Part shown: positions 49,984 through 59,318 of the stretch, one piece after another
Layout: every line of letters begins with the position of its first letter
Numbering within the stretch: position 1 is the first letter of the stretch
Assembly: GCA_021784595.1 (NCBI GenBank)
Contig: JAJYHT010000088.1
Location: 1-64,000 of the forward strand
Direction of reading: 5' to 3'
Length of the DNA: 64,000 nucleotides
Origin: Bacillota bacterium
GTDB taxonomy: Bacteria; Bacillota; Sulfobacillia; Sulfobacillales; Sulfobacillaceae
The notes under the pieces: model-generated
What the model was told of the DNA's origin: nothing
The model's database searches: none
What the model saw: the letters and a program-made list of their open reading frames with translations, nothing else
Program-made: the position numbers and the translations under genes

Positions 49984-51777
49984 ATGCCGCGCCTTATTGT
50001 TTTAGCAGGAAATCCGAATGTTGGGAAGTCCCGCCTCTTTATGGAGCTTACTGGACATTATGCGCATGTCTCTAATTTTCCCGGCACTACGGTAGAAATA
50101 CGGATGGCGCCGTTAGGATCGGATAGTCTTTGCGATACGCCTGGCATTTATGGCTTGGGCCGATTTTCCGAAGACGAAGCCGTGGCTCTGCAGACTATAT
50201 TAGACGCCGATGTAGTCGTCAATGTGGTGGATGCTACCCATTTGCCGCGCGATTTATTCCTTACATTGCAACTGTGCGAGCTCGGAAAACCCATGTGCAT
50301 TGTGCTGAATTTTATGGATGAAGTGCGCCGTAATGACGCATTCGTGGATGGTAAGGCATTGGCGGCCGAGTTAGGCGTGCCGGTCATCGAGGGGTCTGCG
50401 GCCACCGGGGAAAATATGGTTGTTCTTCGCAACCAGCTTAAGGAAACTTTGCCGGTGGCGCCCCCGCATCTTAGGTTGGCCATGCCTGCCGGATCGTGGA
50501 GTCCGGCTGACTCCTTATTATTTTACGAAGAAGATCCCGTTGTAATGAACAAAGTCGGCCATGCTCCACCCTTGGGCAGTCGCGAGCGCCTGTATATGAA
50601 AAGGCGGGAAGAAGCCGATGGCCTGGCCCAAAAAGTGTGGCGTCCTCCGCTTGGGCCGCAACGGTGGTCTTTTCGGTTGGATGCTTTCTTGTTAAGTCCG
50701 ATGGGCGGGGCGCTTGCGATCTTATTGCTTATAGCCGCAATCTATTACGGCATTGGCATCGTCGTGGCCGGAGTCGTGGTGACAACGGCAGAGTCTGTGT
50801 TAAAACTCTACGTGGTGGGGTTGTTGGAACAGGTCACAGGACTATGGATACCACGGGGCACCATAGGGTTTCAGTTGTTGTTTGGGGAGTATGGCATGAT
50901 TAGAGCGGGCCTGGTAGCAATAGGAGGGTTGTTGCTGCCGTTGGTGGCATCGTTCAATCTTGTGTTGGCAATCTTAGAGGGTACCGGCTACTTGCCCAGG
51001 CTGGCAACTTTGTTAGATCGGCTCTTTCTAAGTTTGGGGCTCAATGGTCGAGCTGTCATCCCGCTGGTTTTGGGGTTTGGATGCGTCACGATGGCAACCC
51101 TTAGCACACGGGTGTTGTCCACCAAAAGAGAGCGTTCGATTGCCACTGTGCTTCTGGCCTGGACCATTCCTTGTTCGGCTCAAATGGGGGTGGTGGTAGG
51201 ATTGATGAGCGGGTTGGGCTTTGGATATGCCTTATCCTATGCCGTGATCATCCTGGGCTTATTTGTTTTGGTGGGGACCCTTATGGATAGGACGCTGCCC
51301 GGGCAACCGACGCCACTGCTGTTGGATTTGCCACCGCTGAGATGGCCTAAACTGAGGGATATTTTGCTTAGAACCGAGGGCCAAGTCAAAGAGTTCTTGC
51401 GTGAAGCAACCCCGTTATTTGTGGTCGGTACCGGTCTCATTGAATTGGCTCATCTGTTTGGTGTTTTGAGGAGGGTGAATCATTTTCTAAGTCCCATATT
51501 TCAACAGTGGCTGGGACTGCCACAGCAAGCCACGGGGGCTTTTGTCCTGGGGTTCATTCGGCGGGATTTTGGGGTGGCGGAATTTTATCAAATGCATTTA
51601 TCTCCTCATCAGGTCCTTACAGGGGCGGTCACGCTGACGCTTTTTGTGCCGTGCGTGGCATCGACATTGGTGATTTTGAAAGAGCGTGGCGCATTTGTTG
51701 GAGCCGTCATATGGGCGGGCTCCATTGCGGTAGCTTTGGGGTGTGGGTCAGCGGTGGCTCATTGGTGGCCGATTTGA
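49984..51777 (+). CDS. feoB: Ferrous iron transport protein B
   Basis: A 597-aa iron transporter, a little shorter than usual. The N-terminal GTPase has G1 GNPNVGKSRLF, G2 Thr in FPGTTVE, G3 DTPGIY, G4 as NFMDEV and G5 in GSAATGEN. The C-terminal membrane part has two Gate motifs (GRAVIPLVLGFGCVTMATLSTR, then PCSAQ) and ends in VPCVASTLVILKERG. It imports Fe(II), abundant in acidic habitats. feoA is elsewhere. A GGGGGAG site precedes the ATG. Confidence 0.93.
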   Translation: MPRLIVLAGNPNVGKSRLFMELTGHYAHVSNFPGTTVEIRMAPLGSDSLCDTPGIYGLGRFSEDEAVALQTILDADVVVNVVDATHLPRDLFLTLQLCELGKPMCIVLNFMDEVRRNDAFVDGKALAAELGVPVIEGSAATGENMVVLRNQLKETLPVAPPHLRLAMPAGSWSPADSLLFYEEDPVVMNKVGHAPPLGSRERLYMKRREEADGLAQKVWRPPLGPQRWSFRLDAFLLSPMGGALAILLLIAAIYYGIGIVVAGVVVTTAESVLKLYVVGLLEQVTGLWIPRGTIGFQLLFGEYGMIRAGLVAIGGLLLPLVASFNLVLAILEGTGYLPRLATLLDRLFLSLGLNGRAVIPLVLGFGCVTMATLSTRVLSTKRERSIATVLLAWTIPCSAQMGVVVGLMSGLGFGYALSYAVIILGLFVLVGTLMDRTLPGQPTPLLLDLPPLRWPKLRDILLRTEGQVKEFLREATPLFVVGTGLIELAHLFGVLRRVNHFLSPIFQQWLGLPQQATGAFVLGFIRRDFGVAEFYQMHLSPHQVLTGAVTLTLFVPCVASTLVILKERGAFVGAVIWAGSIAVALGCGSAVAHWWPI

Positions 51778-58499: not shown

Positions 58500-58536
58500 C
58501 GGTACCGTGCAATGCTGACGGTGCCGTTTTGTTTTT
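58500..58536 (+). terminator. Intrinsic terminator after sucD
   Basis: CGGTACCGT at 58500 pairs with ACGGTGCCG at 58518 (nine pairs, one G-T) and is followed by TTTTGTTTTT. This is a good Rho-independent terminator and the strand-switch point before the minus-strand regulator. Confidence 0.85.
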
Positions 58537-58882
58537 AAGAATGGCGATAAAGGCTGACTTTGTGGCGGATCAAGGCCACCACCTCAGCCCACTCTTCGGG
58601 TGGCAAAATGGTTTGGGCTTCAAGCCATTCATCCCAGGAGAGGCCATAAGGCCGCAACACTTCGCGAGTGCGAGTTGGTCCGTATCCTGCTAATTGGAGT
58701 AAAAAATCAGGGTCCACTTTAAGCGCAAGGGCTAAGCTGTTGATTTGCTCAGGATCTGGAGCTGGGCGTTCGCCTCGTTCGATGCGGGACAAATATGAAG
58801 GACTGATGCCGCTTAGCGCCTCGATAGCTTTAAGCGTCAGCGAGAGATAGCGGCGGCGATTCCTGATGTAATCACCAAACAT
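58535..58882 (-). CDS. XRE-family transcriptional regulator
   Basis: A 115-aa regulator. The helix-turn-helix spans residues 5 to 60 (IRNRRRYLSLTLKAIEALSGISPSYLSRIERGERPAP), similar to Cro/CI. The C-terminal half (WDEWLEAQTILPPEEWAEVV) is probably a dimerisation or ligand part. GGAGGG stands seven bases before the ATG. It is divergent from another small XRE gene, with three palindromes between them. Confidence 0.85.
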   Translation of the reverse strand: MFGDYIRNRRRYLSLTLKAIEALSGISPSYLSRIERGERPAPDPEQINSLALALKVDPDFLLQLAGYGPTRTREVLRPYGLSWDEWLEAQTILPPEEWAEVVALIRHKVSLYRHS

Positions 58883-58938
58883 TCGATGTCCCTCCCGCCA
58901 AGATGGTGTGTCCTTCCTTCGCCATGGTACTCAAGATA

Positions 58939-58952
58939 TTGCCTATAGGCAA
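58939..58952. promoter_or_regulatory. Palindromic operator 1 (TTGCC-N4-GGCAA)
   Basis: First of three copies in the intergenic region of two divergent XRE genes; arms are identical to those of copies 2 and 3, the spacer is four bases instead of five. Nearest to the minus-strand regulator. Confidence 0.65.
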
Positions 58953-58977
58953 CAGTAAGCAGTCCAAAACATGGAAT

Positions 58978-59007
58978 TTGCCAAAATGGCAATAAATAGG
59001 GTATGAT
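58978..59007 (+). promoter_or_regulatory. Promoter overlapping operator 2
   Basis: TTGCCA (58978) and TATGAT (59002) are 18 bases apart and form a plausible promoter for the plus-strand XRE gene. Operator copy 2 (TTGCC-N5-GGCAA, 58978 to 58992) covers the -35 box. Confidence 0.6.
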
Positions 59008-59008
59008 T

Positions 59009-59023
59009 TTGCCAATCTGGCAA
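59009..59023. promoter_or_regulatory. Palindromic operator 3 (TTGCC-N5-GGCAA)
   Basis: Third copy, directly after the -10 box, where it covers the expected transcription start. Binding of a repressor here would block the promoter. Confidence 0.65.
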
Positions 59024-59037
59024 AGGGAATGGTTGTA

Positions 59038-59265
59038 ATGCCCACCTTAAAGGTCAATGTACCGGGTCTGCGTCAGTTTATGAAGGACAAAGGATGGTCC
59101 GAGCGCGAATTGGCACTACATATGGACCTGGCCTACTCCTACGTGAATCGCATCTTAAGTGAGAAAAGGCAACCGGGTGCTAAGTTCATTGCGGGTGCGC
59201 TTACGATAGGCTTACGCATTGAAGATGCCTTTATCATTGAGGATGTACCGCCGAAACCGTCGTAG
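59038..59265 (+). CDS. Small XRE-like DNA-binding protein
   Basis: A 75-aa protein that is little more than a helix-turn-helix: LRQFMKDKGWSERELALHMDLAYSYVNRILSEKRQPG, then FIAGALTIGLRIEDAF. The ATG at 59038 is about eight bases after AAAGGGA. It is divergent from the 115-aa XRE gene and shares its palindromic operators; one of the two may repress both. Confidence 0.75.
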   Translation: MPTLKVNVPGLRQFMKDKGWSERELALHMDLAYSYVNRILSEKRQPGAKFIAGALTIGLRIEDAFIIEDVPPKPS

Positions 59266-59292: not shown

Positions 59293-59318
59293 TTAAACCC
59301 TTGATATCAAGGGTTTAA
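59293..59318. repeat. 26-base perfect palindrome
   Basis: TTAAACCCTTGAT and its exact complement meet without a spacer (centre at GATATC). It lies between the small XRE gene and hemA. It could end the XRE transcript on either strand as a hairpin, or bind a regulator of the heme operon. A clear T tract is missing. Confidence 0.6.

Follow-up and report, generated by a model that had tools for sequence, protein, structure and literature searches.

Organization of the divergent XRE locus

The locus contains two divergently transcribed XRE genes, a large one in the repressor position and a small one in the Cro position, with three predicted operators between them. The pair is flanked by sucCD and by hemA-ccsA-hemC-hemD. 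Coordinates refer to the window, the whole 64,000-nucleotide stretch of DNA analysed here.

58535..58882, minus strand: repressor-position gene encoding the large XRE protein (115 aa), with an HTH spanning residues 2-66 and a short helical tail at the C terminus
58924..58952, minus strand: large-gene promoter, TTGCCT-N17-TACCAT, its -35 box covered by site A
58939..58952, no strand: operator A (predicted), TTGCC-TATA-GGCAA, TTGCCTATAGGCAA, containing the large-gene -35 box
58978..58992, no strand: operator B (predicted), TTGCC-AAAAT-GGCAA, TTGCCAAAATGGCAA, carrying the -35 box of the small-gene promoter
58978..59007, plus strand: small-gene promoter, TTGCCA-N18-TATGAT, from the promoter scan
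59009..59023, no strand: operator C (predicted), TTGCC-AATCT-GGCAA, TTGCCAATCTGGCAA, lying after the small-gene -10 box and ahead of its ribosome-binding site
59038..59265, plus strand: small XRE protein, Cro-position gene, 75 aa from the ATG at 59038 or 78 aa if the ATG at 59029 is used
59293..59318, plus strand: probable terminator, a stem-loop with a T-rich tail, 3' of the small gene and between it and hemA

The large XRE protein matches the Pfam families HTH_31 (1.4e-12) and HTH_3 (8.9e-11), and among PDB entries its profile finds SinR (6.7e-14) as well as a phage immunity repressor (8bny; 1.5e-13). The AlphaFold model has a mean pLDDT of 85, with P22 c2 and SinR among the best structural matches to its HTH part. 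The protein resembles the Bacillus SinR/SlrR regulators, its HTH being closest to SinR in sequence and similar to it in structure, but no SinI-like partner is seen. Orthology with SinR/SlrR was rejected, the protein scoring 22.5 bits against a curated SlrR cut-off of 250.

The small XRE protein, whose start at 59038 is the best choice judged from homologues, matches HTH_3 (4.2e-05) and the phage family phrog_3642, 'HTH DNA binding protein' (6.3e-13). Its recognition-helix residues, S-x-VNR-x-L, are invariant among 19 relatives. A structure search with the model (mean pLDDT 92) returned weak generic HTH folds, none with E < 0.001, and a PDB sequence search with the small-protein profile gave no match. 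Taken as predictions, the two models support HTH folds for both proteins, and two divergent HTH repressor-type genes are the arrangement found in cI/Cro-type regions.

No integrase, structural, replication or transfer genes occur near the pair, whose neighbours across the family belong to the TCA cycle and heme synthesis. The probable terminator is built on a perfect inverted repeat, TTAAACCCTTGATATCAAGGGTTTAA, that is kept in the genus (G001, G003 and G004) with one compensating stem change.

Operators and promoters

Both promoters use an operator arm as their -35 box: the TTGCC arm is the hexamer itself, TTGCCA for the small gene and TTGCCT for the large gene. Site B covers the -35 box of the small gene and site C follows its -10 box, with 31 bp between the B and C centres, while site A lies on the -35 box of the large gene. 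As read from the DNA alone, shared operators overlap both promoters, as in cI/Cro-type regions. The original prediction had described three TTGCC-N(4-5)-GGCAA sites with identical arms between divergent XRE genes, and it proves exact in its coordinates, with a 4-bp spacer at A and 5-bp spacers at B and C. Its placement of two sites on the small-gene promoter, at the -35 box and just past the -10 box, agrees with our promoter scan, and the two genes do encode helix-turn-helix proteins by Pfam; the position of A on the large-gene promoter is a point that it did not contain.

The window holds four matches to TTGCC-N3-6-GGCAA where shuffles give 0.69 on average; none of 100 shuffles reached four, and three of the four fall inside 85 bp. 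A chance origin of these three was rejected, the strongest argument being that 23 genomes of the order share them. The fourth match, an isolated palindrome at 50992-51007, has a 6-bp spacer, which is absent among the conserved operators, and is probably due to chance.

Conservation across the order

Of the 42 genomes searched within the order, 24 have the divergent pair. Intergenic regions were compared by one scan in 23 genomes and by eye in the remaining one (G026), because a cysteine synthase gene sits inside its intergenic region. Outside the family, this gene lies between the XRE genes in G026 (L071) and downstream of the small XRE gene in G027 (L073) and G028 (L074).

Site A has perfect arms and a 4-bp spacer in 23/23 genomes, and the distance between the B and C centres is 30–31 bp in all 23. 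The A–B distance varies from 28 to 414 bp in these genomes, suggesting that each promoter is a unit of its own. Each -35 box falls within an operator, and spacers are constant. Every one of the 20 family genomes examined has a large-gene promoter that reads TTGCCT-N17 followed by TACCAT, TACGAT or TAGGAT; in most relatives the small-gene promoter combines TTGCCN or TTGCAA/TTTGCA with TATGAT or TATTAT across 17 or 18 bp. Sites B and C are less constant than A, and several family members and genera have degenerate copies, down to 8 of 10 arm bases. Within the family, the spacer is 4 bp at A versus mostly 5 bp at B and C, which hints from sequence that the two proteins differ in preference. Together with the degeneracy of B and C, the spacer difference means that one protein may not bind all three sites.

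Relatives in phages and mobile elements

A tblastn search of 50,697 phage records matched both proteins in a single phage, phiOH2, which stands under two accessions in the set and in which the two genes are adjacent and divergent. This is a temperate phage of Geobacillus, whose lysogen has been described (PMC3744691, PMC11737034). Its immunity region (AB823818) has the same divergent order, with 36% identity for the small protein and 42% over the HTH for the large one, so that both XRE proteins have homologues in a known phage pair. The annotation calls the large relative an immunity repressor; a Zn peptidase and an integrase flank it, and an antirepressor follows the small relative. Four intergenic operators (TTACCAATTGGTAA, TTACCACTAGGTAA, TTGCCAAAAGGTAA and TTACCAAAAGGAAA) follow the form TTRCC-N4-GGYAA, two of them placed like B and C here, on the small-gene -35 box and behind its -10 box. 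The phage region differs from the present locus in having four operators, a larger repressor (155 aa) and the adjoining integrase, Zn peptidase and antirepressor. The original prediction saw a resemblance to a phage-type repressor/Cro region set apart from other phage genes, between central-metabolism operons; the shared divergent arrangement and B/C placement in phiOH2 support the first point, and the sucCD and hemA-ccsA-hemC-hemD neighbours the others.

Other Firmicutes carry the pair or the small gene near genes that look by eye like integrases or excisionases (G215, G270, G310 and G350); Pfam confirmation covers the PrgI and T4SS-pilin genes of G270. The G270 sites are TTGCCTAAAGGCAA, TTGACAAGTGGCAA and TTACCAGATGGCAA, with 31 bp separating TTGACAAGTGGCAA from TTACCAGATGGCAA. 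The pairs of G255 and G276 have ordinary chromosomal surroundings and a perfect A site. The pairs of G178b, G178c and G310 have no TTGCC sites, indicating that this operator type is not universal in the wider protein family. Solo small-XRE paralogues were also seen in family genomes (L046, L047, L048, L049, L050 and L051); in them a TTyCC-GGTA-GGCAA-like site is conserved ahead of a -10-like sequence. Near one such paralogue (L154) lies a possible type III restriction-modification pair, recognized by eye.

History of the locus

In 16 family genomes the pair immediately precedes hemA, and 14 of them have sucD on the far side; of the other two, G013 gave no sucD match and the G021 contig is too short. 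Among genomes that lack the pair, sucD adjoins hemA in G005 and G008, and other genes lie upstream of hemA in the other six. Two changes of pair presence suffice on the hemA tree, a number as low being obtained in 0 of 500 shuffles, and the distances of the pair correlate with those of hemA (r = 0.84; 0 of 2000 permutations). Both sequence-based results fit one ancient presence followed by one or two losses. The pair has been inherited vertically across the family of the window and is not a local prophage remnant. With no phage genes around it, we also rejected a present-day prophage or integrative element. In other families of the order the neighbours of the pair differ.

A probable domesticated repressor/Cro-type switch

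The locus is most likely a domesticated repressor–Cro switch of the phage or ICE type, as the relatives of both proteins in the phiOH2 immunity region and beside integrase-like genes elsewhere suggest. We put at roughly 0.8 the probability that it is a compact switch of this type that descends from one controlling lysogeny or maintenance in a phage or integrative element. Architecture, conservation, synteny and mobile relatives are features of the genomes compared; from sequence we infer binding, repression and the site preference of each protein. The large and small proteins would be expressed from the divergent promoters, and XRE dimers would bind TTGCC-N4/5-GGCAA. Since an operator arm forms the -35 box of each promoter, occupancy of A would turn off the large gene and occupancy of B and C, which lie about three helical turns apart and bracket the -10 box, would turn off the small gene. 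The predicted outcome is auto- and cross-repression through promoter occlusion, as in cI/Cro switches. The switch would already have been in the sucD–hemA gap of the family ancestor and would have descended vertically since then without mobile genes. No lysogeny-type output gene adjoins the pair, so that simple autoregulation could take the place of a bistable switch.

Candidate targets and alternative explanations

A search for further sites, the check proposed with the original prediction, found 45 TTGCC-N3-6-GGCAA palindromes in the genome against 16 for the reversed control pattern, with no second close cluster. Nearly all of the other exact N4/N5 sites examined lie in coding DNA or in a T-box terminator, and a genome-wide regulon built on exact sites was rejected because these sites fall mostly inside coding DNA. 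At the exact site after atpC (L078), the overlying ORF may be spurious. The site before ileS was discarded as an operator, being recognized by eye as a T-box terminator stem (CCCTTGCCATTTGGCAAGGG after GGGTGGTACCGCG). This T-box-leader lookalike, TTGCCATTTGGCAA at G000 C95:36690 (L088:1991), is also present in L096, L098 and L099 and misleads motif searches. A single further exact N4/N5 site of the genome stands at an operon start: TTGCCTAAAGGCAA at G000 C91:40345, 26 bp before a pilin gene.

G000 C91:40345-45454 (L153:10346-15455): chromosomal type-IV-secretion-like operon with pilin PF18895, TrbL PF19597, a PrgI-like gene and a TraG-like ATPase

This operon is core to the order, its TrbL-like gene being found in 40 of 42 genomes, and the switch might repress it as well. 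A site is kept at this position before the pilin gene as an exact match in G006 and with mismatches in G002, G003, G004 and G015 (two genera), and in another family G027 and G028, which have only 5 and 4 exact N4 sites in their respective genomes, carry TTGCCATATGGCAA further upstream of the operon. Sites occur at 8 of 20 T4SS loci of pair-bearing genomes versus 1 of 19 other loci, a group to which G002 (incomplete) and the second G026 locus were assigned (Fisher p = 0.02), but the association was picked after the search and the genomes are related, so that the p-value overstates it. Of the nine sites counted, at least two look like chance matches; most genera with the pair have no such site, and the arms are degenerate elsewhere in the genus of the window. 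We consider this wider regulon possible but doubtful, and the operon a lead as a target, drawn from sequence comparison. The fuller scenario, in which an acidophilic Firmicutes order captured a mobile-element switch that now governs a core T4SS-like operon, is more doubtful still.

The pair might instead have been kept as immunity, repressing incoming phages or conjugative elements that use the same operators. Mobile relatives with this operator type exist, and TTyCC-GGTA-GGCAA-like sites stand at the promoters of the small-gene paralogues of these genomes; however, no element of these hosts with exact operators was found, and the operators of distant elements partly differ (TTACC, TTGAC), making this explanation rather improbable. 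Control of hemA-ccsA-hemC-hemD by read-through is less likely again. Although the small gene lies just upstream of hemA on the same strand in 16/16 family members examined, in the genus it is followed by the conserved stem-loop with its T-rich tail, hemA has its own extended -10-like sequence by eye in other genera, and the neighbours change in other families of the order. Given that stem-loop, neither neighbour is an obvious target of the pair. MntR-type boxes resemble the TTGCC-N4/5-GGCAA palindrome, and the sites could in principle belong to another regulator, such as a DtxR/MntR-type metal regulator, with the XRE genes merely its targets. This is very improbable: these sites also accompany the XRE pair in phages and integrative elements of other classes, and by eye no metal-transport gene was recognized beside the other exact sites of the genome.

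Implications

The putative domesticated switch recalls a cI-cro-like pair of phage origin that is fixed in Listeria, where the two proteins repress each other and, in some species, the adjoining mtz-tim genes are under the control of the locus (PMC8235301). In both cases an XRE pair of phage origin appears to be kept at one chromosomal spot, a likeness drawn without sequence comparison, but an adjacent target is recognized in Listeria and none here. By this analogy the Listeria locus is a direct precedent, and the present pair would be another such case, family-wide and with its own operator type. We found nothing specific in the literature on this locus, this operator or Sulfobacillus regulators.

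The pair offers a clear case of a phage or ICE repressor circuit that a whole family has retained in the absence of the element. Its operators have been preserved through a protein divergence that has brought the large protein down to about 40% identity. Its fixed anatomy, with an operator arm as the -35 box and 30–31 bp between B and C, makes it a compact natural test case for such switches, and the possible T4SS link is a specific target for testing. If that link is true, a domesticated conjugation-type regulator would be paired with a domesticated secretion machine.
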